Made by a program: the position numbers and the translations under genes. The notes below the pieces were generated by a model. That model saw only the letters and a program-made list of their open reading frames with translations, was not told the origin of the DNA and ran no database searches. A DNA stretch of 64,000 nucleotides, taken from Candidatus Vecturithrix granuli (GTDB taxonomy: Bacteria > Moduliflexota > Moduliflexia > Moduliflexales > Moduliflexaceae). Of the stretch, positions 37,874 to 55,786 are shown in pieces (the stretch's first letter is position 1; each line of letters starts with the position of its first letter). Where the stretch lies: NCBI GenBank assembly GCA_000739535.1, contig DF820475.1, positions 68,637 to 132,636 on the forward strand, read 5' to 3'.

Positions 37874-38761
37874 ATGGCTGCGACAATTATTGACGGAAAA
37901 AAAATTGCGGAAACGATTCAACAGGAATTGGCGGAAGAAATCAAACAGTTACAGGCCGAACATCACCTGACTCCCGGATTAGCCGTCGTGCTCGTGGGTG
38001 AAAACCCTGCCTCAAAGGTGTATGTGCGCAACAAGAACAAAGCCTGCCACGACATCGGTATTTATTCCGAACAGCACAACCTACCGCAAGAAGCTTCAGA
38101 ACAAGAATTATTAGCACTCATTCAACAACTCAACCATGATGACAAGATTCACGGAATTCTGGTACAACTGCCTTTGCCGGATCATATTGATGAACATAAG
38201 GTGATTAATACTATTTTGCCTGAAAAAGATGTGGATGGATTTCATCCGGTGAACATCGGCAAATTGATGATCGGTGAAAAAGGCTTTCGTCCCTGTACGC
38301 CCTTTGGGGTGCAGAAAATGTTAAGCTATTCGGGCGTACCGATTGACGGCGCGCACGTGGTGGTAGTGGGGCGAAGTAATATTGTCGGCAAGCCGATCGC
38401 CAACATGCTGCTGCAAAAGCAACCAGACGCCAACGCCACCGTCACGGTCTGTCATTCACGCACGAAGGATTTAGCCGCGATTACCCGTCAGGCCGATATT
38501 TTGATCGCCGCTATCGGCCAGCCTGAAATGATTACAGCGGAGATGGTCAGCGAAAATGCGGTCGTAATTGACGTGGGCGTCAATCGCATTGAAGACCCGG
38601 CCAGTAAAACCGGGTATCGTTTAGTCGGTGATGTCAAATTTGACGAAGTTTCCCAAAAATGTAAAGCGATTTCCCCGGTTCCCGGCGGAGTGGGGCCAAT
38701 GACGATTACCATGTTGCTCTATAACACGGTCGAATCCGCGAAACAGTCGCTTGAACGCTAA
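37874..38761 (+). CDS. folD: Bifunctional methylene-THF dehydrogenase / methenyl-THF cyclohydrolase
   Basis: A 295-residue FolD, oxidising methylene-THF to methenyl-THF and hydrolysing it to 10-formyl-THF, or running in reverse in the reductive direction. The catalytic Tyr and Lys lie in [16 protein letters not shown] near 46-61; further signatures are [46 protein letters not shown] and the C-terminal [27 protein letters not shown] precedes the ATG. It heads a long plus-strand series leading into hdr, metV and metF, which suits a methyl-branch role: FolD would supply methylene-THF to the MetF reductase. A palindrome follows the stop. Confidence 0.97.
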
Positions 38762-38765
38762 AGTT

Positions 38766-38800
38766 TTAGACTCCCGGAGTCTGGGAGACTCCGGGAGTCT
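38766..38800. terminator. Palindrome between folD and hdrA
   Basis: AGACTCCCGGAGTC (38768-38781) is mirrored by GACTCCGGGAGTCT (38786-38799). The stem is GC-rich and followed by TGTGC rather than a T-run, so termination would be partial. The words are shared with the palindrome at 14361-14393 (AGATTCCGGGA / TCCCGGAATCT). Confidence 0.5.
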
Positions 38801-38815
38801 TGTGCAAAGCCTATT

Positions 38816-41164
38816 ATGGGAAAATATTCGATCATTGGAGCGGGAATCAGCGGCTGTACGGTGGCTCTGGAACTGGCCGGACAGGGGCATGAGGTGACGC
38901 TGCTTGAAGCAAAATCGGTCATTGGCGGAGCGGTTCTGGACTACGCTTGTAAGGCGACCGATGAGTGCAGCCGCTGCGGTGTGTGCGTGGCTGTGACGCA
39001 GATTTCACAGGCAATTCAGCATCAGCGGATTACGACCATTGTCGCAGCGTCGTTGCAGGCGGTCAACCCCCATAATACGCACCTCGATTTCAGGCTTACC
39101 AGGAAAAATCCCGCGATTGATTATCATATCTGTACATTCTGCGATCTGTGCATTTCAGCCTGTCCCGAAGGGTGCATCACCAAAATACAGCGCGGCGAAT
39201 TAATCCAATACGCATTTGAGTATGAACGTTGCCGCCTGCATCAGGGAAATGCCTGTGGCTTATGCGCTGAACAGTGCCCGCAGCAGGCGATTTCAGCCCA
39301 ATCTTTGTTTACAGAAATGCAGTTCAGCAGTGACGCCGTCTTGATTGCCACAGGCCATGCGCCCTACAACGCCGCGCAGCACGTTCGTTTCGGGTACGGA
39401 CGACTTGCAAACGTGATGACCGGTCTTGAGGCCGAACAGATCTTAAGCCGTCAAAGTTCCTTAGGCGATCCCGCAGAGGATGTCGCCTTTATCCAGTGTG
39501 TCGGTTCCCGCGATCCGCGCATCGGCCGGAATTACTGTTCAAGCGTGTGCTGTGCGTATGCCTTGCGTCTGGCGCATATAATCAAATATCGTCACCCTGA
39601 AACGCCGGTTACGATCTATTACATTGATATTCAGCATTTTGATAAAACCTTTTCCTTATTCAGAAAAAGCGTTGAAGCGAGCGGCGTCCGTTTTGTGCGC
39701 GGGATACCGTTTCTGATTGATCGTTCGAGCAGCGGGAAATTGAAATTACACATTGAAAATATGGATGGCGAAGAGACGATTGTTGAACATGATCGCGTCG
39801 TGCTGTCAGTGGGCATGGGGCCGGCTGACGACGCCTCACAATGTGCGTCGTTCTTTGGCCTGGAGCGCGATCAATTCGGATTTTTTACGTCATCTACTCT
39901 GCCGAACGTATTTGTCAGCGGCACCTGTCAGGAACCGCAGAGCATTTCCGAAAGCATGACCGCTGCTCGTGCGATTGCCCTTGGTATGCTGGCTTGCAGC
40001 GGTTCTGTAAACAATGAACAACGCACTGCTCAGCGTCCAGGCAATGCCCTTGCAGATCGTTCTTTCGAACGCAAAAAAATCCCCTTGCAGCAGCAGGTGC
40101 TCGTGCTTGGCGATGGGATCGCCGCAAAAACAGTCGTGCAGGAATTACAAGGTTTGCACTATCCCGTTGCTTGTGTTGAGTCGGAAAATTTGCTGGAATT
40201 CGATGGAAATATCGGCAATTTTACCGCGAAAATCCGGACATCGGGCAATGTAAAATCTCAATCCTTCGGAGCGGTTGTGCTAGCCCCGCAGGAAAGCATT
40301 GCGAAGAATTTCGACCTGGGGCCCCATATTGCCTCATTCGCTGAGATTGACCAACTTCTTGATGAGTTAGCGACGCGCCGTGGGCCAATCTCCATCGGGT
40401 TGGTATTAGACCTGGAACGGGATGAGTCCAAAGCCAGCACAGAAACAGCATTCCAAATTGCAAAACACATCCAGATGCAGCCACGCTATCAGGCGTTCTT
40501 ATTTTGCCGCGACGTGCGCGTGGCTGCTAAAGACTTGGAAATGCGGTACGATGAGGTCAGGCAGGCCGGCGTGAATATCATCAAGTATGAAGGGCAGCTT
40601 ACCTTTGTACCAGCTGAAAATGGCGTGACAATCAGCTGTTGTGATCACATTTTACACCAGACCATCAGCGTCTATTGCGACCGGGTCGCCGTCAGTCCGT
40701 GGGAACTTGCCGCTCCGGAAAAGAACCCTCTGGCAGCATTCACCGGCGTTTCGACAGACACGTATCATCAGATGCAGGACAACAATATTCACCTGTTTCC
40801 GATTGACACCAATCGCCCCGGGATTTTTGTGGTAGGGGCCTGTCACGGGCAGCATTATCTGCCTCAAATCATGCAGGAAGCAAAAGCTGCTGCCCTTGAA
40901 GTTCACGCCTTACTTTCGCAAAAAGAGCTTGAAGTTGAATTATCCAACGCCGTGATTGACCCGGATAAATGTATTCTGTGCCTGACCTGTCTGCGGAGTT
41001 GTCCTCACAAAGCCATCTGGATCAACCACGAAAAAGGCGCGGCCGAAAGCCTGCCGCAGGTATGCAAAAAATGCGGCATCTGCGCCGGCGAATGTCCGGC
41101 CAAAGCCATAGAATTGCCGCTGTATCCGGATCGAGTCATCGAATGGCACAAATGTGACGAATGA
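38816..41164 (+). CDS. hdrA: HdrA-like flavin iron-sulfur oxidoreductase
   Basis: A 782-residue HdrA-family protein. N-terminal FAD motif IIGAGISGCTVALELAGQGHEVTLLEA (residues 5-31); the HdrA cluster CKATDECSRCGVC (about 46-58); ferredoxin motifs CTFCDLCISACPEGC (about 104-118) and CGLCAEQCPQ (about 148-157); the HdrA signature IQCVGSRDPRIGRNYCSSVCCAYAL (about 224-248); a second Rossmann-like segment LVLGDGIAAKTVV near 430; and two C-terminal [4Fe-4S] motifs CILCLTCLRSCP and CKKCGICAGECP. HdrA is the bifurcating flavoprotein of heterodisulfide-reductase complexes. It is the first redox gene after folD and is followed by an mvhD-like gene and metVF, the order seen in acetogen HdrABC-MvhD-MetVF complexes, except that HdrB is missing. 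Confidence 0.9.
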   Translation: MGKYSIIGAGISGCTVALELAGQGHEVTLLEAKSVIGGAVLDYACKATDECSRCGVCVAVTQISQAIQHQRITTIVAASLQAVNPHNTHLDFRLTRKNPAIDYHICTFCDLCISACPEGCITKIQRGELIQYAFEYERCRLHQGNACGLCAEQCPQQAISAQSLFTEMQFSSDAVLIATGHAPYNAAQHVRFGYGRLANVMTGLEAEQILSRQSSLGDPAEDVAFIQCVGSRDPRIGRNYCSSVCCAYALRLAHIIKYRHPETPVTIYYIDIQHFDKTFSLFRKSVEASGVRFVRGIPFLIDRSSSGKLKLHIENMDGEETIVEHDRVVLSVGMGPADDASQCASFFGLERDQFGFFTSSTLPNVFVSGTCQEPQSISESMTAARAIALGMLACSGSVNNEQRTAQRPGNALADRSFERKKIPLQQQVLVLGDGIAAKTVVQELQGLHYPVACVESENLLEFDGNIGNFTAKIRTSGNVKSQSFGAVVLAPQESIAKNFDLGPHIASFAEIDQLLDELATRRGPISIGLVLDLERDESKASTETAFQIAKHIQMQPRYQAFLFCRDVRVAAKDLEMRYDEVRQAGVNIIKYEGQLTFVPAENGVTISCCDHILHQTISVYCDRVAVSPWELAAPEKNPLAAFTGVSTDTYHQMQDNNIHLFPIDTNRPGIFVVGACHGQHYLPQIMQEAKAAALEVHALLSQKELEVELSNAVIDPDKCILCLTCLRSCPHKAIWINHEKGAAESLPQVCKKCGICAGECPAKAIELPLYPDRVIEWHKCDE

Positions 41165-41249
41165 TGGGGTGCTTATCACTGTTTTATATTCTTTTCGGAA
41201 TTTTGAGCAAATTCGTGTTATTCGTGATCTTCGATGACTCCTTAACGCA

Positions 41250-41627
41250 ATGATGAAGGAACAGAAGAAAATTGTGGTATTCTGTTGTGAAAATTCGGCC
41301 TATAAAGCGGCGCAGGCAGTGCAGGATTCCACGCTGCTTGAGGCAATAGATATTGTACGCCTGCCCTGTTCCGGAAAGATTGAGATTGGCCTGGTGTTAA
41401 AATGTTTTGAGCAAGATGTGCCCGGCGTGCTGATTCTGGCCTGTCCGATTGATAATTGTCAATATCTGACCGGCAATAAACGCGCGCGCAAACGGGTGGA
41501 GATGATCAAACAAGCCCTGCGCAACGCCGGCTATGACCAGAACAGAGTCAAACTCGACTTTCTGTCGTCAGTTGATACGCATAAATTCATCAATAGCGTG
41601 AAAGAAATGTTGACTGCTAAAGATTGA
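41250..41627 (+). CDS. Divergent MvhD-like hydrogenase iron-sulfur subunit
   Basis: A 125-residue protein of the MvhD/FlpD family, which hands electrons to HdrA through a [2Fe-2S] cluster. Matching blocks are IVVFCCENSAYKAA, RLPCSGKIEIGLVLKCFE and LILACPIDNCQYLTGNKRARKR. Compared with the usual FxCNWCSYAGAD motif (intact in the second copy at 50630-51058), the first pair reads FCCENS: the second usual Cys position is Ser and an extra Cys sits one residue earlier. The PCSGK and C-x5-C blocks are kept. It may therefore hold a different cluster or bind a different partner. It lies 85 bases after hdrA and 77 before metV. Confidence 0.83.
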   Translation: MMKEQKKIVVFCCENSAYKAAQAVQDSTLLEAIDIVRLPCSGKIEIGLVLKCFEQDVPGVLILACPIDNCQYLTGNKRARKRVEMIKQALRNAGYDQNRVKLDFLSSVDTHKFINSVKEMLTAKD

Positions 41628-41692
41628 ATGTTGGATGTTAAATGGTGAAAGTCTGATCGCCAATAATTCAACATTTAACATCTAACATTCAA
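41624..41692. repeat. Palindrome between mvhD-like gene and metV
   Basis: TTGAATGTTGGATGTTAAAT (41624-41643) is mirrored by ATTTAACATCTAACATTCAA (41673-41692) with one mismatch. The left arm overlaps the TGA stop of the mvhD-like gene. The metV gene begins 12 bases after the right arm. Confidence 0.7.
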
Positions 41693-41704: not shown

Positions 41705-42376
41705 GTGATTACTGCTGTTCAAAAGCCGTTTGAAGAAATTATTACGATGATTCAGGGGTACGAAAAACTCTTGATCCTCGGCTGCGGCTCCTGCGTGACG
41801 GTCTGTATGGTCGGAGGCGAAAAAGAAGTGGGCATTCTGGCCTCTACGCTGCGCCTGGCGCATAAGAAACAAAGCCGCTTCATGGAGATTCAAGAAGCCA
41901 CGATTACCCGCCAGTGCGATCGTGAATTTTTTGATGAGGTCAAAGATAATATCGCCTGGGCTGACGCCGTGTTATCCTTAGCCTGCGGCGTAGGCGTACA
42001 ATTTTGCAGCGAAGTGTTTCCGGGCAAGCGCGTGCTGCCGGCCCTGAACACCAAATTCTACGGTACAACCGAGCAGCAGGGAATTTGGACAGAGCGCTGC
42101 GGCGGCTGCGGAACCTGTGTGCTGGCTGATTTTGGGGGAATTTGTCCGATTGCGCGTTGCTCCAAAAGTCTGCTGAATGGCCCTTGCGGAGGGTCTGCCC
42201 ATGGCAAATGCGAGGTTGACCCGGACAATATTGACTGCGCCTGGCAGCTTATCTATGATCGCATGACCGCCCTGGGACTCTTGCACAAACTAGAAGAAAA
42301 TTATCCGATCAAAGATTGGAGCGCCGGACGCGACGGCGGCCCGGGCAAAATCGTCAGAGAAGATATGTTGTTATAA
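41705..42376 (+). CDS. metV: MetV, zinc-binding partner of methylene-THF reductase
   Basis: A 223-residue protein of the MTHFR C-terminal-type (MetV) family. The N-terminal half has LLILGCGSCVTVCMVGGEKEV; the C-terminal half carries the Cys-rich set ERCGGCGTCVLADFGGICPIARCSKSLLNGPCGGSAHGKCEV, matching the zinc/iron-sulfur motif of MetV. In acetogens MetV binds MetF and connects it to electron donors (established for Moorella-type complexes). The start is a GTG at 41705 with no evident ribosome-binding site; the repeat ends just upstream. It lies 15 bases before metF. Confidence 0.9.
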   Translation: MITAVQKPFEEIITMIQGYEKLLILGCGSCVTVCMVGGEKEVGILASTLRLAHKKQSRFMEIQEATITRQCDREFFDEVKDNIAWADAVLSLACGVGVQFCSEVFPGKRVLPALNTKFYGTTEQQGIWTERCGGCGTCVLADFGGICPIARCSKSLLNGPCGGSAHGKCEVDPDNIDCAWQLIYDRMTALGLLHKLEENYPIKDWSAGRDGGPGKIVREDMLL

Positions 42377-42391: not shown

Positions 42392-43348
42392 ATGAATACT
42401 AACGCATTCAAAGCCGGAAGTCGTTTGGAAAAAGTGCTGTATGCCGGACATTTTGCAGTCACGTCAGAGCTTGGCCCGCCGAAAAGCGCGGATGTGGATG
42501 TGATTCTCACAAAGGTCGGCTATCTAAAAGGTTACGTAGATGCGGTGAACATCACCGATAATCAAACCTCGATTGTGCGCATGTCCTCGCTGGCGACCGG
42601 ACTGATTGCCATGCAGCATGGATTGGAGCCGGTCGTGCAGATCACCTGTCGCGACCGCAACCGGATTGCGATTCAGAGCGATGTACTCGGAGCTTATGCC
42701 CTGGGGATCAGAAATATCCTCTGTTTGACCGGGGATCATCAGAAATTTGGCAATCATCCGACCTGCAAAAACGTGTATGACCTGGATTCAATCCAACTTA
42801 TCCACACCCTGAAAACCATGCGGGATGCGAAGACCTTCCTGTGCGGCGACGAGATCAGGAACAGCAAAAAATCACCGATTATGGAGCCGCGCATTTTTAT
42901 CGGCGGGGCCGCCAATCCTTTTGGCGATCCCTTTGAATTTCGGGTGATCCGCTTAGCCAAAAAAGTTAAAGCCGGCGTGGATTTCATCCAAACTCAATGT
43001 ATTTACGACATGGAACGCTTTGAAAAATGGATGGCTCTGGTACGTGAACGCGGATTGCACGAGCAAGTCAAGATTCTGGCTGGCGTCACGCCTTTGAAAT
43101 CAGCCAAAATGGCAATGTATATGCGCGACCATGTGGCTGGCTTAAAAATCCCGGATGTTTATATTGAACGGTTAATACAAGCAAAAGACGCCGCTGCCGA
43201 AGGGATTAATATCTGCGTTGAACAAATTCAACACCTTCGCACCATCGCGGGCGTGGCCGGCGTGCACATCATGGCAATTGAATGGGAACAGCGCGTGCCG
43301 GAAATTGTCGAAAGGGCTGGCTTGCTGCCGAGGCCAGAAGTTAAGTGA
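42392..43348 (+). CDS. metF: Methylenetetrahydrofolate reductase
   Basis: A 318-residue MetF TIM barrel that reduces methylene-THF to methyl-THF through FAD. Diagnostic blocks: FAVTSELGPPKSADVD near 22-37, AVNITDNQTSIVRMSSLATG near 52-71, RDRNRIAIQSDVLGAYALGIRNILCLTGDH near 88-117, and VDFIQTQCIYDMERFEKWM near 196-214. There is no NAD(P)H-binding extension, consistent with a bacterial MetF supplied by partner subunits. It follows metV closely, and the hdrC-like gene follows after a palindrome. Confidence 0.95.
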   Translation: MNTNAFKAGSRLEKVLYAGHFAVTSELGPPKSADVDVILTKVGYLKGYVDAVNITDNQTSIVRMSSLATGLIAMQHGLEPVVQITCRDRNRIAIQSDVLGAYALGIRNILCLTGDHQKFGNHPTCKNVYDLDSIQLIHTLKTMRDAKTFLCGDEIRNSKKSPIMEPRIFIGGAANPFGDPFEFRVIRLAKKVKAGVDFIQTQCIYDMERFEKWMALVRERGLHEQVKILAGVTPLKSAKMAMYMRDHVAGLKIPDVYIERLIQAKDAAAEGINICVEQIQHLRTIAGVAGVHIMAIEWEQRVPEIVERAGLLPRPEVK

Positions 43349-43448
43349 CTAAAACGACTAAAGTTTATAAGTGTCTAAAATTGTAAGATCTTGTGATTTT
43401 AGCCCACTTGTCACTTTAGTCATTTTAGTCACTTTAGTCACTTTAAAT
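43344..43448. repeat. Palindromic GTCACTTTAGTCA repeat overlapping the end of metF
   Basis: The metF stop region AAGTGACTAAAACGACTAAAG is mirrored by CTTTAGTCATTTTAGTCACTT at 43411-43431, with an extra GTCACTT unit. The right arm is open in frame and would add a spurious Val/Leu/Thr-rich leader to the next gene if the first ATG at 43371 were used. Confidence 0.75.
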
Positions 43449-43931
43449 ATGGAAACAATCACACTCACGAAACTTGATCCGAATTTTAAATTCGAGCTTG
43501 CCGAAAAGCCCGGCGCGGCCAATATTCGCAAATGCTATGCCTGCGGCACGTGTACGGCCGGATGCCCGGTGTTTCACGTGGAGCATACCTATAATCCGCG
43601 CAAACTGATTCATAAGATTCTGCTCGGTATGCGCGAACAGGTACTCAGTTCCAAGGTAATCTGGCTCTGTCTGCGCTGTTATACCTGTACGGCCAATTGT
43701 CCGCATGACGTTGATTTTTCCAATATCATGATGAGCCTGCGCGAGATGGCGATTGAAGAAGGCTATGCGCCGCCGGAAATCCTTGAGCAAATTGACTTCC
43801 TGACGACTGCTGCCAATGATTTACGTAAGGATTGTATTAATCTCTTCTTGCATGAAGGCGACATAACAAAAGAGCAAATCCGGGAGAATTTCGAAAAAAT
43901 GCTGCAACAGATAGAGAAACCGGGTTTTTGA
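43449..43931 (+). CDS. hdrC: HdrC-like iron-sulfur subunit
   Basis: A 160-residue protein with two [4Fe-4S] motifs: CYACGTCTAGCP near residues 27-38 and CLRCYTCTANCP near 68-79, followed by the HdrC pattern HDVDFSNIMMSLREMAIEEGY. HdrC carries electrons between HdrA and HdrB in heterodisulfide-reductase-type complexes. I place the start at 43449 (METITLTK) because the longer frame begins within a repeat. The last five residues EKPGF and the stop codon are supplied by an AGAAACCGGG palindrome at 43915-43947, an unusual repeat-derived C-terminus. No HdrB gene is present in the window. Confidence 0.88.
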   Translation: METITLTKLDPNFKFELAEKPGAANIRKCYACGTCTAGCPVFHVEHTYNPRKLIHKILLGMREQVLSSKVIWLCLRCYTCTANCPHDVDFSNIMMSLREMAIEEGYAPPEILEQIDFLTTAANDLRKDCINLFLHEGDITKEQIRENFEKMLQQIEKPGF

Positions 43932-43947
43932 CAAAAACCCGGTTTCT
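43915..43947. repeat. AGAAACCGGGTTTTT palindrome overlapping the hdrC stop
   Basis: AGAAACCGGGTTTTT (43915-43929) and AAAAACCCGGTTTCT (43933-43947) are exact complements with a GAC loop. The stop TGA of the hdrC-like gene lies in the loop, and the 5' arm encodes its last residues. Same repeat as 6531-6563. Confidence 0.8.
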
Positions 43948-43972
43948 TCCAGGTTTGCATGGGTTCGAAAAT

Positions 43973-44845
43973 ATGGAAAATAATAAAGTGGGCGCCGTGA
44001 TGGTGGTTGGAGCCGGGATTGCCGGAATTCAGGCATCTTTGGATCTGGCGGACAGCGGCTATAAAGTCTATCTGGTGGAGAAAGATCCATCCATTGGCGG
44101 TGTGATGACGCAACTGGATAAAACCTTTCCCACCAACGACTGCTCGATGTGCATTGTCTCCCCCAAATTGGTCGAGTGCAGCCGCCATGCTAACGTTGAA
44201 TTGTTAACATATTCAGACATCGAGAAGGTACAGGGGGAAGCCGGACATTTCACGATTCGGGTCAATAAAAAAGCGCGCTCCGTTGATCCGGCGAAGTGCA
44301 CCGGCTGCCGCGAGTGCATGACAGCCTGCCCGGTCAGCAAGCGCATTCAGATCCCGGAAACCATAGAGCAGGAAGAGACTGAAGAAACGCACATCACGGA
44401 TCAGATTATCGCGAAATACGGCGGTAAAAAACAGGCCTTGATTATGATCCTCCAGGACGTGCAGAACCGTTTTCATTATCTGCCTGAAGCCGCCCTGCGC
44501 CGGATCAGTACGCGCTTAGAACTCTCGTTTGCAGAAATTTACGGCACTGCCAGCTTTTATAAAGCTTTCAGCCTTGAACCGAGGGGACAACACATCATTC
44601 AGGTCTGCATGGGCACAGCCTGCCATGTGCGCGGCGCACAACGCATTTTAGAAGAATTCGAACGCCTGTTGAGCATCAACACCGGACAGACCACCGAAGA
44701 TCGCCTGTTTACTTTGGAAACCGTCAATTGTCTGGGAGCCTGCGCGCTGGGGCCGATTGTGACGGTTGACGAGGGCTATCACGGCAATATGACCCCGGGC
44801 GGAGCGGCGAAATTGATTGACAGATATGCCAAGAATAAAAGATAA
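43973..44845 (+). CDS. Fusion of HdrA N-terminal half with NuoE-like [2Fe-2S] domain
   Basis: A 290-residue fusion. Residues 1-120 are the FAD half of an HdrA: VMVVGAGIAGIQASLDLADSGYKVYLVEK at 9-37, DCSMCIVSP near 55-63, LLTYSDIEKVQG near 77-88, and the first ferredoxin motif CTGCRECMTACP near 108-119. There HdrA sequence stops. From about residue 140 a NuoE/HoxE thioredoxin-like domain follows (ALIMILQDVQNRFHYLP; cysteines in VCMGTACHVRG and NCLGACALGP), the usual [2Fe-2S] entry to NuoF. The missing HdrA half is fused to the NuoG-like protein at 47169. I chose ATG 43973; earlier frame lies in a repeat. It precedes the NuoF gene. Confidence 0.87.
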   Translation: MENNKVGAVMVVGAGIAGIQASLDLADSGYKVYLVEKDPSIGGVMTQLDKTFPTNDCSMCIVSPKLVECSRHANVELLTYSDIEKVQGEAGHFTIRVNKKARSVDPAKCTGCRECMTACPVSKRIQIPETIEQEETEETHITDQIIAKYGGKKQALIMILQDVQNRFHYLPEAALRRISTRLELSFAEIYGTASFYKAFSLEPRGQHIIQVCMGTACHVRGAQRILEEFERLLSINTGQTTEDRLFTLETVNCLGACALGPIVTVDEGYHGNMTPGGAAKLIDRYAKNKR

Positions 44846-44846
44846 C

Positions 44847-45058
44847 CTCACCCCCGGCCCTGCCTCCAAAGGAAAGGGGAGAAAAGTTCCCTCCTCCTTT
44901 GGAGGCAGGGCTGTTAAGTTCTACGCAATTTTGTCATCTCGACTTCGCTCGATGACCGGAACACCGGGCGTCGAGCGAAGTCAAGACGGCCTTTCTGACG
45001 AGAACTTAATAGCCATAGCCCTGCCCTTTGGGGGAGGGTTGGGGAGGGGGTAAAAACA
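44847..45058. repeat. Nested composite repeat (GTTAAGTTCT element inside a CCCTGCC repeat)
   Basis: Outer layer: CTCACCCCCGGCCCTGCCTC and the facing GCCCTGCCCTTTGGGGGAGG (44848-44912 and 45017-45050). Inside sits an element with ends GTTAAGTTCT (44913-44922) and AGAACTTAA (45001-45009), and inside that a GTCATCTCGACTTCGCTCGA / TCGAGCGAAGTCAAGA palindrome (44932-44986). The same stack recurs at 53419-53640. Confidence 0.8.
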
Positions 45059-45060
45059 GC

Positions 45061-47004: not shown

Positions 47005-47172
47005 ATGACCACCCATGATCAACATGACATCATCCGGTCTGTAGAAAACGGTGAATGGCAGTCTGTAGAGAATTTTGAAGACGTCAAAAAAAGCTTGATA
47101 CAGGCTGCATCCAAAACAGCGTTAAAGAATTATCGTATTAATGTCAGAATTTCAAGGAATCCGGGAAAGTGA
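47005..47172 (+). pseudogene. Truncated CopG/BrnA-type antitoxin remnant
   Basis: A 55-codon frame with GAGGTG upstream: MTTHDQHDIIRSVENGEWQS..., then LIQAASKTALKNYRINVRIS and RNPGK before TGA. The sequence matches the N-terminal and ribbon start of BrnA/CopG-type antitoxins (ESFENGEW..., then KDKRINIRIS in typical members), but it stops where the ribbon-helix-helix helices (usually EGIPYQTLI) should follow. The TGA overlaps the GTG start of the next gene (GTGA). No toxin gene is adjacent. It is probably the remnant of a toxin-antitoxin locus caught inside the redox operon. Confidence 0.6.
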
Positions 47173-50100
47173 ATATTACAATTAATGGCAAAAGCGTTCA
47201 GGTTGAAGAGGGGCAGACGATCCTTGAAGTCGCCAAAGACCTGAATATCGGCATTCCGACCCTCTGCTTTCACTCTGCGCTCGAAGCTTATGGCGGCTGC
47301 CGCTTATGCGTGGTTGAGGCCCGGCGCGGCAGGTGGTCGAAACTGGTCACGTCGTGCAATTACGAAGTCTGGGACGGATTGGAAGTCTTGACGAATTCCG
47401 AGCGCGTTCATAAAAGCCGTAAAATGACCGTCGAACTATTATTGGCGCGCTGCCCGGAAGTCGAAGCGCTGCAACGCCTGGCGCGCGCCTATAAAATCAG
47501 CGAGCCGCGTTTCCCCAAAGAGCAGGATGATTGCGTTTTATGCGGCTTGTGTGTGCGCATCTGTCAGGAGCGTATGGGGGTCGGCGCGGCTAGCTTTGTA
47601 GGACGCGGCGCGGAAGTTCGCGTTGACACGCCGTACAGCCGAGGCAGCGAGGTCTGCATCACCTGCGGTGCGTGCGTGAGCGCCTGTCCGACGCAATCCA
47701 TTCGCCTGAACAGCGTATTTCCGCAAAAACTTGTACCGCAAAAAGCGGAATTCGAGCTGGGGTTGAAAGAACGCCCGACCATCTACATCCCTTTTACCCA
47801 GGCGCTGCCGAATGTGCCGGTGATAGATCGCAGCAATTGCGTCCATTTTTATAACGGCGCGTGTAAAACCTGTCAGGAGATCTGCCCGGCCGAGGCCATT
47901 GATTACACCCAGGAAGATGAAGCCGTGGAGCTTGACGTTGGCGCGGTCATCTTAACGCCCGGATTTTGCCTGTACGATGCGGCTCAGAAACCGCAATACG
48001 GCTATGCGCTGTATCCGAACGTTGTTACCAGCTTGCAGTTCGAACGCCTTCTCTCTGCCAGTGGGCCGTGCATGGGGGAAGTACGACGTCCTTCGGATCA
48101 GCGGATTCCCCATCGCATTGCTTTTATCCAGTGTGTGGGTTCCAGAGAAACGGAACACAACTTTTGTTCTTCCGTGTGCTGCATGTACGCCATCAAAGAA
48201 GCCATCATCGCCAAAGAACATGAAAAAGACGTGATGTGCGATATTTTTTACATGGACATCCGCGCGTATGGTAAGGGTTTCGACGCCTATTACGATCGCG
48301 CCAAAGAGATCGGGATCCACTTCACCCCCTGCCGTCCTTCAAAAATCGAAGAGATTCACGCCAATCACAACCTACTCATCACGTACATTGAAGAAGATGG
48401 AACCTGCCAGCGCAAAGAATTCGAGATGGCCGTGCTGTCCGCCGGATTTCAACCGCCGGAACAGGTGCAGGAGTTGGCAGACAAATTTGGGCTGGCGTTG
48501 AATCAGCATGGCTTTGCCGTGACCGATCCCTTTGATCCGGTCGCCACATCGCGCAAAGGGGTATATGTGTGCGGCCCATTTTCCGAACCGAAAGATATCC
48601 CCGAAACCGTAGTCGAAGCCTCAAACGCCTCATCGCGTGCTATGATTGACCTGGCGGAGGTGCGCGGCACCCAGATTGTCGAACATCCGCTGCCTCCGGA
48701 GCGGGATGTACGCGGAGAACCGCCGCGCATCGGCGTCTTTGTCTGCCATTGCGGTCGTAATATCGGCGCCTATGTGGATGTACCCTCGATTGCGGACTAT
48801 GCCAAAACGCTCCCCCATGTCGTGTATAGCACGGATACACTCTACACCTGTTCTTCGGACACACAGGTCTTCATCAAAGACGCCATTCTCGAGCACCATC
48901 TGAATCGCATTGTTGTCGCCTCCTGTTCGCCGCGCACGCATGAACCGCTGTTCCAGGAAACCATCCGCGAAGTCGGACTCAATCCGCATCTCTTTGAAAT
49001 GGCGAATATCCGCGATCAGTGCTCCTGGGTGCACATGTTTGAGCATGACTCAGCAACCGCAAAATCCAAAGATCTGGTCAGAATGGCAGTTGCAAAATCG
49101 GCGTTGACCGAACCGCTGATTTCCATCCCGCTCGACGTGACGGCCAAAGCCTTAGTGCTCGGCGGCGGGGTCGGCGGCATGACCGCCGCGCTTGGGATTG
49201 CGAACCAGGGCTACGAGGTCTTTCTGGTCGAAAAAACCGCCAATTTAGGTGGAAATGCCCTGAAGATCGAACACGATTTGTACGGCAATGATGTCAGAAA
49301 ATATCTTAAAGCCCTGCAAAATCAAGTCCGGACTCATCCGTTGATCACAGTATTTACCAATGCCCAGATTGCTAAAGTTGACGGATTTATCGGTAACTTT
49401 GTGAGTACGATCGAGACGCGGAACGTTATGCCAAAGCAAGCTTTGGCACTCCAGACGCAGCAGACAGAGGTGAAACACGGCGTGGTAATCGTTGCTACTG
49501 GCGGCAGTGAACATGCGCCGACAGAATATCTGTACGGAACCAATTCCCGCGTGAAAACCCTGCTTGATTTGAGCGAGGCTCTGGCAACTGGCGAGTTTAC
49601 GGTTCCTGATACGGTGGTGATGATTCAGTGTGTCGGGTCGCGCGAACCCGATCATAATTATTGCAGCCGCATCTGCTGCGCCGGGGCCATTAAAAATGCG
49701 ATCCGCATGAAAAAGATGAATCCTGACGCAAACATTTTCATTCTGTATCGCGACATCCGCACCTATGGCTTTCGCGAAGAATATTACGGCGTCGCCCGCG
49801 ATCTAGGGATCAACTTTATTCGCTACACATTGGAACGCAAACCGGGTGTGACCGCAGAGAATGGAAACTTGACGGTCAGCGTGTATGATGCGATTCTGGA
49901 CGCAACATTGGAAATCTCAACGGATTTGCTGGTGTTAAGCAGCCGGATCGATCCGAACCCGGATAATGACCACATTTCCCAACTCTTGAAAGTGCCCTTA
50001 AATAGCGAGAAATTCTTCTTAGAGGCGCATGTCAAACTGCGTCCGGTCGAATTTGCGACCGATGGGGTCTATGTCTGCGGCTTAGCCCACTATCCTAAAG

Positions 50101-50408
50101 ATATCAAAGAAACGATTTCGCAGGCCATGGCGACCGCCGGACGGGCTGCCACGGTGTTGAGTAAAGACAAAATCGAAGCGGCCGGGAAGATTGCCTATGT
50201 CAACGCCGTGCGCTGCAGCGGCTGCGGCGCGTGTGTAACGGTCTGCGCCTATAATGCGATCAGCCTGGATAACGAACGGCAAATTGCGGTGATTAACGAA
50301 GCCTTATGCAAAGGCTGCGGCGCGTGCGCTGCCACCTGCCGCGGGAGCGCGATTAAACTGCATGGCTTTGAAGATGAACAGATTCTGCGTATGTTAAACG
50401 TGCTTTAA
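47169..50408 (+). CDS. NuoG N-terminus + HdrA C-half + complete HdrA fusion protein
   Basis: A 1079-residue protein. Residues 1-75 are a NuoG-like [2Fe-2S] domain (TLCFHSALEAYGGCRLC...TSCNYEV); CVLCGLCVRICQE (about 121-133) and CITCGACVSACP (about 165-176) are ferredoxin motifs. At about 200 the sequence joins HdrA exactly past its first ferredoxin: RPTIYIPFTQALPNVPVIDR, CKTCQEICPAEAIDYTQ, SLQFERLLSASGP, IQCVGSRETEHNFCSSVCC. A whole second HdrA begins near 520 (IGVFVCHCGRNIGAYVDV), with FAD motif VLGGGVGGMTAALGIAN near 662 and IQCVGSREPDHNYCSRICC near 818, and C-terminal ferredoxin motifs CSGCGACVTVC and CKGCGACAATC. GTG start at 47169 overlaps the preceding TGA. Confidence 0.88.
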   Translation: MNITINGKSVQVEEGQTILEVAKDLNIGIPTLCFHSALEAYGGCRLCVVEARRGRWSKLVTSCNYEVWDGLEVLTNSERVHKSRKMTVELLLARCPEVEALQRLARAYKISEPRFPKEQDDCVLCGLCVRICQERMGVGAASFVGRGAEVRVDTPYSRGSEVCITCGACVSACPTQSIRLNSVFPQKLVPQKAEFELGLKERPTIYIPFTQALPNVPVIDRSNCVHFYNGACKTCQEICPAEAIDYTQEDEAVELDVGAVILTPGFCLYDAAQKPQYGYALYPNVVTSLQFERLLSASGPCMGEVRRPSDQRIPHRIAFIQCVGSRETEHNFCSSVCCMYAIKEAIIAKEHEKDVMCDIFYMDIRAYGKGFDAYYDRAKEIGIHFTPCRPSKIEEIHANHNLLITYIEEDGTCQRKEFEMAVLSAGFQPPEQVQELADKFGLALNQHGFAVTDPFDPVATSRKGVYVCGPFSEPKDIPETVVEASNASSRAMIDLAEVRGTQIVEHPLPPERDVRGEPPRIGVFVCHCGRNIGAYVDVPSIADYAKTLPHVVYSTDTLYTCSSDTQVFIKDAILEHHLNRIVVASCSPRTHEPLFQETIREVGLNPHLFEMANIRDQCSWVHMFEHDSATAKSKDLVRMAVAKSALTEPLISIPLDVTAKALVLGGGVGGMTAALGIANQGYEVFLVEKTANLGGNALKIEHDLYGNDVRKYLKALQNQVRTHPLITVFTNAQIAKVDGFIGNFVSTIETRNVMPKQALALQTQQTEVKHGVVIVATGGSEHAPTEYLYGTNSRVKTLLDLSEALATGEFTVPDTVVMIQCVGSREPDHNYCSRICCAGAIKNAIRMKKMNPDANIFILYRDIRTYGFREEYYGVARDLGINFIRYTLERKPGVTAENGNLTVSVYDAILDATLEISTDLLVLSSRIDPNPDNDHISQLLKVPLNSEKFFLEAHVKLRPVEFATDGVYVCGLAHYPKDIKETISQAMATAGRAATVLSKDKIEAAGKIAYVNAVRCSGCGACVTVCAYNAISLDNERQIAVINEALCKGCGACAATCRGSAIKLHGFEDEQILRMLNVL
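49428..49452 (+). repeat. In-frame palindrome inside the NuoG-HdrA gene
   Basis: TGCCAAAGCAAGCTTTGGCA (49429-49448), followed by CTCC, has 9-base perfect arms. Read on the other strand it is GGAGTGCCAAAGCTTGC..., a relative of the MITE interior and of the nuoF insertion. It codes MPKQALALQ at residues 754-762, in a loop of the second HdrA domain. Confidence 0.65.
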
Positions 50409-50412: not shown

Positions 50413-50619
50413 TGCCCACGAAACACACGAAAAGACACGAAAAAAAGAATGAAAAGAGGCGTTGGTCGTTGTTTCGGCCAACACTACAACGGATTTGGGA
50501 ATGGAACAGATTGTCCAGATCATTATCCGTTGAATTCTCAAATCCGTTGTAGTATTAGCCGAAACGATGATCAATATTTTCATTCTTTTTCCGTGTCTTT
50601 CCGTGTGTTCCGTGGGCCA
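50413..50619. repeat. Nested inverted repeat between NuoG-HdrA and mvhD
   Basis: Outer arms 50413-50455 and 50577-50619 pair along CCCACGAAACACACGAAAAG and its counterpart. An inner palindrome has arms GTTTCGGCCAACACTACAAC (from 50471) and GTTGTAGTATTAGCCGAAAC (to 50565). The outer arms are related to the 2474-2757 element. The mvhD frame runs back into the repeat up to 50567, but this is not coding. Confidence 0.8.
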
Positions 50620-50629
50620 TTCTTCTGCT

Positions 50630-51058
50630 ATGGAAAATTGGGAACCGAAAATTGTGGCGTTTTTATGTAACTGGTGTTCGTATGCCGGGGCGGATCTGGC
50701 CGGAGTCAGCCGTTTACAATACGGCACAAATATCCGGGTGATTCGGGTGCCTTGCTCAGGACGCGTGAATCCGTTGTATATCCTCAAAGCCTTGCAAAAC
50801 GGCGCAGATGGTGTGCTGGTTTCCGGCTGTCATCCGGGAGATTGTCACTACATCAGCGGCAATCTGGCGGCGCGGCGCAAATTTGCCCTGATCAAAAATT
50901 TGCTGGAATATGTAGGCCTTGAACCGCAGCGAGTGCAATTCTCCTGGGTATCGGCGTCCGAAGGACAACGCTTTGCAACCCTGATCAACAAAGTCATCGA
51001 AGATGTCAAAAAAGTCGGCCCGGCCAAAAAACTTGTGAAGAACTTGAGCGAATTCTAA
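50630..51058 (+). CDS. mvhD: MvhD/FlpD-type hydrogenase iron-sulfur subunit
   Basis: A 142-residue MvhD with all canonical motifs: AFLCNWCSYAGADLAGVSR near residues 9-27, RVPCSGRVNPLYILKAL near 41-57, and GVLVSGCHPGDCHYISGN near 62-80. MvhD binds a [2Fe-2S] cluster and links an electron source (hydrogenase or dehydrogenase) to HdrA. The start at 50630 (MENWEPKIV) leaves the preceding repeat. It follows the NuoG-HdrA gene and so probably binds one of its HdrA domains. The stop TAA coincides with the flank of a decayed MITE copy. Confidence 0.92.
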   Translation: MENWEPKIVAFLCNWCSYAGADLAGVSRLQYGTNIRVIRVPCSGRVNPLYILKALQNGADGVLVSGCHPGDCHYISGNLAARRKFALIKNLLEYVGLEPQRVQFSWVSASEGQRFATLINKVIEDVKKVGPAKKLVKNLSEF

Positions 51059-51298: not shown

Positions 51299-53251
51299 AT
51301 GTATAAAATGAGTCTTAGAAACAAACTGATATTTACCATTATTCCACTGATGATCATCACAATTACCATCTTGATGATCATTTCCTATTGGCAGTCCTCG
51401 CGGGCGATTCTATCGCAAAATACAGAATATTTGGAACAAATCGTCCAAAAGACGGTTGATGAACTAACCTTCTGGATTGAAGAACGGGAACGCGAGATCA
51501 CGTTACTCAGCCAGGAGACTCTCCTGCACAAGGCATGTTCAGGACAGGATCTGGCAGAAGCGCAGCAACGCTTAACCAGCTACCACCAACAGTCCCCGGT
51601 GTATGAAGCGATCTTTTTGACCGATCCGCAAGGGGTGGTTTTGATGACTTCAACGCAACAGCAGATCGGACTTGATTTGACACAAAAACCAGAATATGCC
51701 GAAAATATCGCCCAGGCGCAACAGGGGCAGCTCTGGATTGGAACGGTTGAAAAAGCACCTGACACTGGCAGACCGGTCGTCTTAATTACCGCGCCGATTA
51801 TGGTAAACGACAAAATGATTGGAATTCTTGGAACTCCTATTGAAGTAGATTATTTTTCAGAGCAGCGTGTCAGCCAGCAAAAAGTCGGGAAGGATGGGTA
51901 CTTCACGATGTTAGATCAAACCAAGAAAATCCTGGCGCACCCGGATAAAAAAATGATCATGACGGCAGCTACTCTGGGGTCGGCTCTGGGGCCCGATAGC
52001 CAGACGCAGAAGCAGGGTCAATATGTTTATGACTGGAATGGCGTTGAGAAAATCATGAACTTTCAAACTTGCCCACGCACCGGGTGGTTGGTGGCAGCGA
52101 CAATTACAAAAGATGAACTTTTTCAAGAAATCAATCGTTCCCGGAACATGGCGATTGGGTTAGGAATCGGCTGTATTGTCGTGGCGTCGCTGGCAATCTG
52201 GTGGATTATGGTGAACAACCTCTCCGCTCCGATCCGCGCAACCGTCGAATTTGTCAAAAAGGTGTCCGCTGGAGACCTCTCTGAGATCATGGAGGTGAAT
52301 CGTCAGGATGAGTTAGGTGTGTTATTACAGGCCATGAGTCAGATGATTATGAAACTCCGGCAGGTGGTGTCAGATGTCAAATACGCGGCAGAGAATGTGG
52401 CTTCTGGCAGTCAAGGTATGAGCGCCAGCGCAGAAATCATGTCGCAGGGCGCGACCGAACAAGCGACAGCCTCAGAAGAAGCGTCAGCTTCCATGCAAGA
52501 AATGACCGCCAATATTCGTCAGAATGCGGAGAATGCCTTACAAACCGAAAAGCTGGCGCTGCAAGCGGCTGAGGACGCACGCCTCAGCGAAGCAGCCGTC
52601 ACACAAGCGGCTCAGGCCATGCAGCAAATTGCTCAAAAAGTCGCAATTATTGATGACATTAGCCGGCAAACCCGCATGCTCTCGCTGAATGCGACGATTG
52701 AGGCTGCCCGCGCGCAAGAGTATGGGAAAGGGTTCGCAGTGGTCGCGTCGGAAGTTCGGGCGTTAGCCGAACGCAGCCAGACCGCGGCCGCAGAAATCAC
52801 CGAACTCGCCAGTTCATCGGTGATTATCGCTGAAAAAGCCGGCGGGATGTTGCAACAACTTGTACCCCATATTCAACAGACCGCCGAATTAGTGCAAGAG
52901 ATTGCGGCTGCCACTCGGGAGCAAGATACCGGGACCCAACAGATCAATCAGGCGATTCTCCAACTGGATCAGGTCACACAGCAGAATTCTTCCACCTCCG
53001 AGGAATTAGCCGCGACCTCCGAAGAGTTGGCCGGACAAGCTGAAATGCTCCAGCAGACCATTGCCTTTTTCAAAACGGATGACACTCATCATGACCACCT
53101 GCTGCCAGAAGAGCGCGAGGCAATCCGTCAGAGGGAGCAAAAAAAATCAACTCCTACAGCTAGTGCCTCTACCGCCCATCAGAAGGTGCGGAGTGAGAAG
53201 GCAACAGCAGTTGAAAGGGACGCCCATGATGATGAGTTCGAGCGATTTTAG
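51299..53251 (+). CDS. Methyl-accepting chemotaxis protein with double Cache sensor
   Basis: A 650-residue chemoreceptor. TM1 at about 10-30, a dCache_1-like periplasmic sensor ([60 protein letters not shown]), TM2 at about 280-303, HAMP ([28 protein letters not shown]), and a cytoplasmic signalling tip [39 protein letters not shown]. The C-terminal tail is long, charged and ends in [12 protein letters not shown]. It sits inside the Hdr/Nuo redox cluster, between mvhD and the FrhB-like gene. This may be coincidence, or a receptor for a substrate of the pathway. It has its own promoter. Confidence 0.95.
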
Positions 53252-53640: not shown

Positions 53641-53707
53641 CTGTGTAACATAAATTATGAATAATACGTTTGAAATTTTTAACGGACATTGAGCAGGCAC
53701 TTCATTT

Positions 53708-54709
53708 ATGGAACAACAACTTCAGGAGATTGCCAGATCGCTGATTGTGCAACAGGAAATTGACCTGTTGATCGGTTATGAACAAGGGTCCTTGCCGTTG
53801 ACAAGCAGACCGTTGTTTATCAAAGTCAAAGGCGCAAAACAGCCGGAAAAATCGGTCGAAAAACTGGCCTGGAATGCTTTTTGCTCGAATAATCTGGCGG
53901 TCTTTCTGCCTAAATATTTTGAGCGCACTCCTTTTGCCCGCAAACATCCGCCCAAACCGAGGATCGGGATCATCGCCAAAGGCTGCGATTTACGCTCGAT
54001 TGTGACGCTCATCAAAGAAAAACAAGCGCCGCGAGAGAACCTGGTCTTGATTGGCGTTCCCTGTCAGGGCATGATTGATCGCCGCAAAATCGAAGAGCGG
54101 ATGGCAGGCGAAACTGTCCGCGATTATCAGGAGCAGGAGGGAATCTTGAACCTTACAACCGGCAGCGGGAAAACGTATGCTCTGAGCAAAGAAGAGGTGT
54201 TGCAAGAGGCTTGCCGTGAGTGTCGTTACCCCATGCCCGCAGGCGTGGATTATCTGATCGAAGGGACCGCCAGAAATCCGGCGCAAAACAGCTATGCGCA
54301 GATTGAGGCATTTGAAGCCCAAACGCCCCAGGAACGCTGGGCCTATTTCGAACAGGAAATGGCAAAATGTATTCGCTGCTACGCCTGCCGCCAGGCCTGC
54401 CCGACCTGTTGGTGCAAAGAGTGTTTTGCCGAACAGACGGATTTGAAATGGATCGGGGCCAGCACGAATCTGTCGGATGCCATGATCTTTCATCTGACCC
54501 GTATTTTTCACCAGGCCGGACGCTGCGTGGAGTGCGACGCCTGTTACCGCGCCTGTCCGATGGGGATTGACTTACGCACCTTTACCAAAAAAATCGGCAA
54601 GGATGTCGAACACTTGTTCCAATTTACGCCAAATTTTGATCCGGACACGATCCCGCCGATTTCGACGTTTAAAGAAACGGATAGCGACAGCTTTATCACG
54701 GAACCGTAG
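53708..54709 (+). CDS. Dicluster [4Fe-4S] electron-transfer protein with FrhB-like domain
   Basis: A 333-residue iron-sulfur protein. The N-terminal two-thirds resembles FrhB/FdhB-type flavin- or F420-binding subunits (IGIIAKGCDLRSIVTLIKE, NLVLIGVPCQGMIDRRKIEE), with CRECRYPMPAGVDY near 175. The C-terminal third has two cluster motifs, CIRCYACRQACPTCWC near 221-236 and CVECDACYRACPMG near 273-286, the second HdrC-like. No membrane segments. It is followed by an AsrA/HydB-like gene 54 bases later; the pair would pass electrons between NADH/ferredoxin and the Hdr complex. This assignment to a role is inference. Confidence 0.75.
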   Translation: MEQQLQEIARSLIVQQEIDLLIGYEQGSLPLTSRPLFIKVKGAKQPEKSVEKLAWNAFCSNNLAVFLPKYFERTPFARKHPPKPRIGIIAKGCDLRSIVTLIKEKQAPRENLVLIGVPCQGMIDRRKIEERMAGETVRDYQEQEGILNLTTGSGKTYALSKEEVLQEACRECRYPMPAGVDYLIEGTARNPAQNSYAQIEAFEAQTPQERWAYFEQEMAKCIRCYACRQACPTCWCKECFAEQTDLKWIGASTNLSDAMIFHLTRIFHQAGRCVECDACYRACPMGIDLRTFTKKIGKDVEHLFQFTPNFDPDTIPPISTFKETDSDSFITEP

Positions 54710-54763
54710 GGAATTGGGTAACTACAGGAATGAGGAATAAGCAAGAATTTGAGGATTGAGGTT

Positions 54764-55786
54764 ATGCATCAAGGAATTTTGACAAAGCAGGAATTGAACG
54801 CGCTGATCAGCGCGGCGGCGCAAGAGGCAGAGGTGTATGCCCCGGCCAAAGGCCGGAATGGGGTTGAGTATCTCAAAACGAGCGGAGCAGAGCAGGTAGC
54901 TTTTGACTATGTGAATATCAAGCTTTCACCCAAAAGCCTGTTTTTTCCGCAAAAAGAAGTGATTTGCCGCTTTTGCGGCGATACCCTGAGTGACGCGCCT
55001 GCGCCGGAAGAAAAGCTGATTGTCCTGGGCGCGAGACCTTGCGATGTCCGTTCCCTGCTGTGTCTGGATAAGGTCTTTGCCGATCAGACCAGTCAGTTTG
55101 CCGATCCCTATTATCTCTCGCGCCGAAATAATGCTCTCATCATCACCTTCGCCTGTCATACACCGGCCCCAACCTGTTTCTGCACTACCGTCGGCGGCAG
55201 TCCGACTGAACCCACCGGCTCGGATATTCTGGCGACAGAATTAGAGGATGAACTGCTGTTTGAAGCCTGCTCTGAGAAAGGCGGCACGTTTCTGGAAACT
55301 TATAAGACCTTCTTTCAGCCGCCAACCGAGGAGCATCTCAGAAGAAAAGATGAACAGGCCGCGCAGGCCGCCGAGCAGTTGCACGAATTCAATATTGAGG
55401 GCATCAAAGCGAAACTTGACCGCCTCTTTGAAGAAAGTGTGTGGGAAACACTCACCAACACCTGTTTAGGCTGCGGCGTGTGTACCTATTTATGCCCTAC
55501 CTGCCATTGTTTTGATATCAGCGACGAAACCAACGCCAAAGGCGAAGGCGTGCGTCTGCGCACCTGGGATTCCTGTCAATATCCCCTCTTTACGCTGCAC
55601 GCCTCCGGTCATAATCCGCGCGTCAACAAAAAGCAGCGTATGCGCCAGCGCATCATGCACAAATTTTCCTATACCGTGGAGAACGTGGATGACATTTATT
55701 GCGCCGGCTGCGGCCGCTGCGTCATCCATTGCCCCGTCAACCTGGACATCCGCGAAATGTTGCAGACCCTCGTTCTTGCGCCGTAG
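54764..55786 (+). CDS. AsrA/HydB-like [4Fe-4S] dicluster protein
   Basis: A 340-residue protein of the anaerobic sulfite reductase A / sulfhydrogenase beta family. Typical blocks are VNIKLSPKSLFFPQKEVIC, LGARPCDVRSLLCLDKVF near 88-105, and two C-terminal cluster motifs CLGCGVCTYLCPTCHCFD near 230-247 and CAGCGRCVIHCPVNLD near 313-328. AsrA-type subunits accept electrons from an FAD/NAD(P)H subunit (AsrB/HydG-like); one is encoded at 33132-33977. The ATG at 54764 has GAGG five bases upstream; a TTG at 54749 is less likely. No sulfite reductase (AsrC) gene is present. Confidence 0.85.
   Translation: MHQGILTKQELNALISAAAQEAEVYAPAKGRNGVEYLKTSGAEQVAFDYVNIKLSPKSLFFPQKEVICRFCGDTLSDAPAPEEKLIVLGARPCDVRSLLCLDKVFADQTSQFADPYYLSRRNNALIITFACHTPAPTCFCTTVGGSPTEPTGSDILATELEDELLFEACSEKGGTFLETYKTFFQPPTEEHLRRKDEQAAQAAEQLHEFNIEGIKAKLDRLFEESVWETLTNTCLGCGVCTYLCPTCHCFDISDETNAKGEGVRLRTWDSCQYPLFTLHASGHNPRVNKKQRMRQRIMHKFSYTVENVDDIYCAGCGRCVIHCPVNLDIREMLQTLVLAP

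Follow-up and report, generated by a model that had tools for sequence, protein, structure and literature searches.

The route by which electrons reach or leave methylene-tetrahydrofolate (methylene-THF) reductase (MTHFR) is an open question in the energetics of acetogens and syntrophs. In the Hdr-type MTHFR of Moorella thermoacetica and Sporomusa ovata, MetVF is found beside HdrA, HdrC and MvhD, HdrA carries a bifurcation signature, and the presumed donor NADH is modelled as reducing both methylene-THF and ferredoxin (PMC5861303, PMC7483475). For the Moorella enzyme, neither the second electron acceptor nor the part played by HdrBC is settled. The metFV-hdrA-mvhD cluster of Thermacetogenium phaeum lacks hdrB, which, like hdrC, is located elsewhere in that genome (PMC6895022). 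Related parts recur in the FlxABCD-HdrABC NADH dehydrogenase of Desulfovibrio and in the Bam-Bfu benzoyl-CoA reductase, where NuoEFG-like BamGHI is joined by HdrA, an MvhD-like protein and a tungsten enzyme. The Bfu paper (PMC9304861) does not refer to an MTHFR (0 matches for methylene, MetF and tetrahydrofolate).

The window analyzed here is a 64,000-nucleotide stretch of the assembly of “Ca. Vecturithrix granuli”, an anaerobe. Its positions 37874-55786 hold a cluster of open frames, all on the plus strand, whose expected domains were confirmed by domain search. The cluster genes, together with one displaced gene on the minus strand, are as follows.

33132..33977, minus strand: FlxA-like FAD/NAD(P)H oxidoreductase subunit of the HydG/AsrB/ShyC family (FAD_binding_6, NAD_binding_1 and DHODB_Fe-S in Pfam; HydG/AsrB/ShyC in NCBIfam)
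37874..38761, plus strand: folD, methylene-THF dehydrogenase/cyclohydrolase (Pfam); a 78% identical folD closes the L026 cluster
38816..41164, plus strand: HdrA1, an additional HdrA-like protein that bears 2x[4Fe-4S] at its C-terminus (domains); its homologue is first in the L026 and L029 clusters
41250..41627, plus strand: MvhD1/FlpD, divergent (PF02662); in the alignment, Ser replaces one cysteine of the MvhD2 pattern
41705..42376, plus strand: MetV, Zn/Fe-S subunit of MTHFR (PF12225, MetV C-terminal domain)
42392..43348, plus strand: MetF, methylene-THF reductase catalytic subunit (PF02219; identity 79% to L026, 74% to L029)
43371..43931, plus strand: HdrC of a clade not adjacent to HdrB (TIGR03290, partial; HdrC tree); the true start is probably later than annotated
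43928..44845, plus strand: HdrA N-terminal half fused to a NuoE/HydC-like [2Fe-2S] domain (domains; same order in L029)
45028..46989, plus strand: NuoF/HydB (BfuB)-type FMN subunit (domains; PDB matches)
47169..50408, plus strand: NuoG-type, BfuA-like N-terminus fused to HdrA-HdrA (Fer2, HdrA and HdrA domains)
50567..51058, plus strand: MvhD2, equivalent to FlxD (PF02662; identity 80-83% in L025 and L026)
51299..53251, plus strand: methyl-accepting chemotaxis protein, which interrupts the cluster, is absent between mvhD2 and flxC in L026 and is probably unrelated
53708..54709, plus strand: FlxC-like Fe-S subunit; a 60-65% identical gene lies directly behind mvhD2 in L025 and L026
54749..55786, plus strand: FlxB-like Fe-S subunit of the ShyB/HydB-sulfhydrogenase/AsrA family (58% identical in L026)

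As in the Hdr-type MTHFR, metV and metF adjoin hdrA and mvhD. A genome-wide search found MetV in a single copy and no FlpD outside the cluster. Unlike the Moorella and Sporomusa systems, the window has no HdrB, an HdrC of another clade, an extra HdrA1 and MvhD1, and a Flx module. The absence of HdrB, part of the original prediction, was borne out: the cluster encodes no CCG protein, and the only one in the 8.38-Mb assembly is GlcF-like and stands beside a GlcD-like end, so that an HdrB with two CCG domains was found neither in the cluster nor in the whole assembly. A separate hdrABC set, named beforehand as one of two findings that would count against the prediction, is likewise absent from this genome. 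In contrast to T. phaeum, HdrC is encoded within the cluster; in the HdrC tree it groups with HdrC2 proteins, split (100/99) from the HdrCs that partner HdrB. All seven fully read HdrA-MvhD-MetVF loci in the survey keep hdrCB. MetV as a disguised HdrB was rejected, as profile comparison of the two gave a probability of 0.3%; because of this lack of profile similarity, the statement that MetV takes the seat of HdrB describes gene content only. A PDB sequence search with MetV returned no match, and an AlphaFold model of MetV built from a two-sequence alignment (pLDDT 43) was too poor to use.

Two Spirochaetota MAGs share the neighborhood around metVF; conservation thus extends beyond metVF itself, and the second of the adverse findings did not appear either. 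The order in L029 is HdrB-free and identical to that of the window up to the L029 contig end, whereas L026 has a near-identical order, also without HdrB, with GltD in place of NuoEFG. In all three loci metVF lies between hdrA1-mvhD1 and hdrC, and the window MetV pairs with that of L026 in the tree (100/99). The cluster and the same arrangement in spirochaete genomes suggest a distinct NADH-linked variant of the known acetogen complex. A conserved, natural version of this kind, which lacks HdrB and has a HydBC-type core in place of the NADH module, shows which parts the complex can do without.

The multiplication of HdrA noted earlier (HdrA1, HdrA_N-NuoE and NuoG-HdrA-HdrA) was confirmed by domain search, as was the building of NuoEFG-type domains into HdrA. 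The frame with the NuoE domain starts with an HdrA N-terminus. NuoE, NuoF and the NuoG N-terminus occupy the exact position of the GltD NADH module in the Moorella-type HdrA (HdrL), and the GltD insertion point in the 1505-aa protein of L026 is the same as that of NuoE in the window. NuoF carries an N-terminal [2Fe-2S] cluster and C-terminal 2x[4Fe-4S], the extra domains of HydB-type subunits, and its best PDB matches are such subunits of bifurcating hydrogenases (7t2r_B and 7q4v_B; 607 residues). With its FMN domain, N3-type [4Fe-4S] and accompanying BfuC, it has the makeup of a BfuB, while the BfuA-like Fer2 and 4Fe-4S N-terminus is fused to HdrA-HdrA. Judged by these domains, NuoEF is of the HydBC/“Bfu” bifurcating type. 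Of the two HdrA domains encoded at 47169-50408, the first retains the E and K of the HdrA flavin-domain bifurcation signature, E356/K409 (PMC9430772), and the second has S and K; HdrA1 has E with R instead of K. The window thus shares with Bam-Bfu a HydBC/NuoEF-type core, HdrA and MvhD but has MetVF as its substrate module, which adds MTHFR to the modules found with HydBC/Bfu cores.

The two genes at the end of the cluster, formerly called FrhB-like and AsrA-like, are present, but their identity is corrected to FlxC- and FlxB-like (ShyB/AsrA family) within a Flx module that includes mvhD2. The Flx names are presumptive and are based on the literature instead of a match to a Flx profile. FlxD, FlxC and FlxB follow in order, while FlxA, encoded on the minus strand outside 37874-55786, is separated from them by 17-20 kb. 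This FlxA is 79% identical to the L026 gene directly behind FlxC-FlxB, and in L026 (Spirochaetales) FlxA is contiguous with the FlxBCD genes. Compared with FlxABCD-HdrABC of Desulfovibrio, with which the window shares FlxA-, B-, C- and D-like subunits, HdrA and HdrC, HdrB is lacking, FlxA is displaced, MetVF is present and NuoEF is added.

On balance, the gene content favors an HdrB-free variant of the Hdr-type MTHFR, a methylene-THF reductase/methyl-THF dehydrogenase that would be large, soluble and linked to NAD(H) and would more likely run oxidatively in this host. The complex is probably electron bifurcating or confurcating. The proposal of a new NADH-dependent bifurcating methyl-branch complex thus holds for the conserved HdrB-free set but not for an unrelated new complex, as the locus is rather an Hdr-type MTHFR variant with NuoEFG for GltD and with Flx genes. 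NADH would be exchanged at NuoF (FMN) and/or FlxA (FAD), and MvhD2 and Fe-S clusters would relay electrons to the flavin of HdrA in the 1079-residue protein with the bifurcating signature. From there, one branch would lead through HdrC and MetV to the MetF flavin, without HdrB, and the other to ferredoxin. Overall, the complex would catalyze methylene-THF + 2 NADH + Fd(ox) <-> methyl-THF + 2 NAD+ + Fd(red), a reaction expected to lie close to equilibrium and therefore to be reversible. The HdrB-free order in L026 and L029, E356/K409, the HydB-type NuoF and the HdrC clade support such a complex; against it, methyl-THF oxidation in T. phaeum proceeded without NAD+, and a test for ferredoxin-driven confurcation was negative (PMC6895022). 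A bolder scheme, which we regard as rather doubtful, would place two bifurcation/confurcation centers in series (HydBC-type FMN and HdrA FAD) with a direct, HdrB-free HdrC-to-MetV route, enabling a non-acetogen to use NAD+ for the oxidation of methyl groups to formate/CO2 despite the -200 mV barrier. An HdrB-free cluster offers a clean system for the question of direct electron feeding from HdrA/HdrC to MetVF.

The direction in which the complex runs would depend on the host. The genome search suggested originally found Fhs and an [FeFe] hydrogenase, and the genome also has formate dehydrogenase, Rnf and corrinoid methyltransfer loci; the methyl-branch set of Fhs, FolD, MetVF and formate dehydrogenase is complete. 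No match to PF03598 (CdhC/AcsB), the sole search for acetyl-CoA synthase, was found in the ~94%-complete, ~10.8%-contaminated assembly, whereas the domain is present in all five relatives. Acetogenesis by the host is therefore unlikely. Since acetyl-CoA synthase is undetected while corrinoid loci, Fhs, formate dehydrogenase, Rnf and hydrogenase are present, oxidative use is likelier, with the complex running in the confurcating direction from methyl-THF to formate/CO2; in spirochaete relatives with acetyl-CoA synthase, the same machine may serve the Wood-Ljungdahl pathway. Cluster and genome content together suggest methyl oxidation without acetyl-CoA synthase.

Reductive use of the same complex is a credible though less probable alternative. 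As a Wood-Ljungdahl remnant from a spirochaete-like donor, the complex would then make methyl-THF out of formate/CO2 or serine and feed methionine synthesis or methyl transfer. This reading fits the presence of Fhs, FolD and formate dehydrogenase, acetyl-CoA synthase in close relatives and the occurrence of MetV in one of four sampled genomes of the host phylum, as expected from acquisition. It is opposed by the missing CdhC domain, by a second, HMT-fused MTHFR elsewhere in the genome, which could be the methionine-synthesis enzyme, and by methyl-transfer loci that also carry an activase and a methyl-THF methyltransferase, a combination pointing to methyl input. The methyltransferase-like gene at 27068, once proposed as a partner, is weakened as methyl donor because no corrinoid partner lies close to it and a fuller set exists at L162.

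Two machines in one locus, a stand-alone ferredoxin-dependent MetVF and an independent Hdr-Nuo-Flx NADH/ferredoxin oxidoreductase with an unknown partner, are unlikely. S. ovata MetVF was purified without Hdr subunits and was active with ferredoxin, although pull-downs showed MetV binding to HdrA, with HdrB not detected (PMC9430772). Similar Hdr-Nuo-Flx superclusters without MetVF occur in two genomes (G004 and G005), which also counts against the complex; however, they contain HdrB, and in G005 the MetVF cluster has none. Separate machines are also opposed by the finding that the window, L026 and L029 all have metVF inside the run, flanked by hdrA1-mvhD1 on one side and hdrC on the other.

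That an HdrB of the organism was lost from the assembly (93.8% complete, 10.75% contamination) is very improbable, even though hdrBC stands apart from metVF-hdrA in T. phaeum (PMC6895022), given that L026 and L029 show the same order without HdrB, that a search of the L029 genome (G008) likewise yielded no HdrB and that the window HdrC falls outside the HdrB-partner clade.

An origin of the contig from contamination is disfavored because 18-mer repeats of the window and neighboring C9 stretches also occur in most of the other contigs sampled from the assembly. Matches numbered 10-258 in 10 of 11 assembly stretches and 1 in the other, compared with 0-5 in six foreign controls, and the shared repeats include ones between the cluster genes.

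Frame-by-frame reading with Pfam and NCBIfam placed the methylene-tetrahydrofolate (THF) reductase genes of “Ca. Vecturithrix granuli” in a same-strand run, with a related gene upstream on the other strand:

37874-55786, plus strand: folD, HdrA1, MvhD1, MetV, MetF, HdrC, HdrA_N-NuoE, NuoF, NuoG-HdrA-HdrA, MvhD2, MCP and two Fe-S proteins, in this order
33132-33977, minus strand: FAD/NAD-binding protein of the HydG/AsrB family

HdrA1 has 782 aa, the gene between HdrC and NuoF encodes an HdrA N terminus fused to a NuoE domain, and a 1,079-aa protein joins a NuoG-type N terminus to two HdrA units. The original prediction of multiplied HdrA, added NuoEFG domains and missing HdrB was borne out, the last in both the cluster and the assembly. 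Intergenic gaps are −4 to 85 bases from folD through the HdrA_N-NuoE gene and 158 to 240 bases from there up to MCP. The two terminal Fe-S genes, 39 bases apart, are set off by MCP and 456 bases, and the final protein belongs to the sulfhydrogenase beta/AsrA family.

Of the five loci returned by a scan with the 1,079-aa protein as the query, four lie in Spirochaetota metagenome-assembled genomes, and two Spirochaetota loci conserve the gene neighborhood with metVF inside it. L029 matches the window order exactly until its contig ends (hdrA1-mvhD1-metV-metF-hdrC-HdrA_N/NuoE-NuoF-NuoG). L026 reads hdrA1 (two frames)-mvhD1-metV-metF-hdrC-HdrA (1,505 aa)-mvhD2-FlxC-FlxB-FlxA-202 aa-folD; compared with their window counterparts, MetV, MetF and FlxA are each 79% identical, MvhD2 80% and FolD 78%. 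This order and these identities link the gene at 33132, despite its minus-strand position, with the cluster as FlxA and identify the last cluster genes as an FlxDCBA-like module, named after the established Desulfovibrio FlxABCD-HdrABC genes.

The lack of HdrB is a feature of the lineage and not an assembly gap, as indicated by genome searches, HdrB-less relatives, the HdrC tree and MetV pairing. In the 8.38-Mb assembly (93.8% complete, 10.75% contaminated), the sole CCG-family protein (374 aa) is GlcF-like, judged by its neighbors, a GlcD-like end and an alcohol dehydrogenase-like gene; the single CCG protein in the genome of L029 is a GlcD-GlcF-type fusion. No hdrB occurs in the L026 cluster or in that of L029 as far as its contig reaches. 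The window HdrC groups with the second HdrC of MetVF-less superclusters, separately from HdrB-partner HdrCs, and in the MetV tree the window and L026 sequences make up a separate pair (support, 100/99 in each tree). Across the phylum to which L026 belongs, MetV exceeded the cutoff in 43 of the 392 genomes surveyed. All seven HdrA-MvhD-MetVF loci read including their upstream part (L131 to L137) contain hdrC-hdrB, with MvhD not seen in two; L131, L132 and L133 also carry a second, divergent MetF-like gene (∼33% identity to the window MetF) upstream of hdrCB-hdrA-mvhD-metVF. HdrB exists in genomes G005 and G004 within a separate Hdr-Nuo-Flx supercluster without MetVF. These Hdr-NuoEFG-MvhD superclusters (L157/L167/L168 on C68 of G005 and L158 on C130 of G004) carry HdrB, HdrC and a second HdrC, and that of G005 terminates with a complete FlxDCBA set.

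The Moorella HdrA has an additional N-terminal part with a GltD domain binding FAD and NAD(P)H (PMC9430772), and HdrA-GltD-type fusions are called HdrL in Desulfobacterium (PMC2702500). The 1,505-aa protein of L026 is of this kind. At its GltD position the window chain is split, with HdrA_N joined into NuoE, NuoF separate and the NuoG N terminus joined into HdrA-HdrA. The same NuoEFG swap occurs in L131, whose cluster does contain HdrB; which NADH module a cluster carries is thus not tied to whether it has HdrB. The window NuoF matches HydB subunits of bifurcating hydrogenases from end to end, with both additional Fe-S domains included in the match. The first HdrA domain of the 1,079-aa protein has the E/K pair that is the criterion for bifurcating HdrA; the second keeps only K, and HdrA1 has E and R.

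This architecture fits a reversible, NAD(H)- and ferredoxin-coupled methylene-THF reductase. The redox potentials of methylene-THF/methyl-THF and NAD are −200 and −320 mV (PMC5861303), and in Moorella and Sporomusa the energy left from NADH-driven reduction is thought to serve ferredoxin reduction (PMC5861303, PMC7483475). Methyl-THF oxidation with NAD+ requires a push, to which ferredoxin confurcation is one answer; in Thermacetogenium phaeum, a test of such confurcation was unsuccessful (PMC6895022). The cluster products are predicted to assemble into one bifurcating complex, with electrons passing along HdrA-HdrC-MetV-MetF, that would perhaps run in the oxidative direction. NuoF and FlxA would offer a double NADH entry, and tandem bifurcation, as proposed for the benzoyl-CoA reductase complex Bam (PMC9304861), is possible.

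Among the genes sought elsewhere in the genome, Fhs and an [FeFe] hydrogenase were found, together with RnfC; hdrB was not, nor, in a domain search of the assembly, was CdhC/AcsB, a domain present in five of five relatives. Other one-carbon genes include five corrinoid-cap proteins, one of them in the L162 run below, a homocysteine methyltransferase-methylene-THF reductase fusion and the following:

L017:4475-7165 (C19), minus strand: alpha subunit of a formate dehydrogenase, its frame broken by a single TGA where selenocysteine is expected, with NuoE/NuoF genes close by
L162:6095-11288 (C21): UroD-type methyltransferase, corrinoid protein, methyl-THF:corrinoid methyltransferase and RACo/AcsV-type activase in one run

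The MetH/AcsE-like pterin-binding methyltransferase at 27068-28093 stands alone, lacks a corrinoid protein in its vicinity and carries an N-terminal extension of ∼70 residues. An MtgC/MtbC-like corrinoid protein lies immediately behind a TAXI-TRAP-type transporter (L161:3789-8177, C18); similar transporters, all called by eye, lie upstream of hdrA1 in L026/L139 and on the window's own contig (L024:14978-18598).

In the open-licence full-text literature examined, MetF/MetV-HdrA-NuoE/NuoF-MvhD-FlxABCD combinations are represented by HdrABC-MvhD-MetVF systems that are already known and by the split arrangement of T. phaeum; no MetVF-Hdr cluster that lacks HdrB but includes NuoEFG and Flx is described there. 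By its lack of HdrB the window cluster falls outside the Hdr-type reductases in the strict sense; it probably works like them. A further type of reductase partner occurs in L144 (G135), L082 (G139), L084 and L091, where MetVF lies beside NuoE and a NuoF-GltD fusion and Hdr genes are absent; L144 has a molybdopterin (formate dehydrogenase-like) subunit upstream. In L093/L143 (G076), a short NuoG-NuoE-NuoF, its NuoF without extra Fe-S domains, immediately precedes metV-metF, again without Hdr genes.

Acquisition from a spirochaete-like donor fits, without being proven by, the GC content of the cluster (0.509, versus 0.480 and 0.470 in the flanks) and the rarity of MetV in the host phylum (one of four genomes examined). 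Repeats in common tie the contig to the remaining assembly. Within nuoF, a palindromic repeat present as two tandem 30-nt copies (45313-45372) keeps the reading frame and inserts ∼20 residues after the N-terminal [2Fe-2S] domain, ahead of the FMN domain; the palindrome recurs at 2594-2615 and 56063-56084, with related repeats on further contigs.
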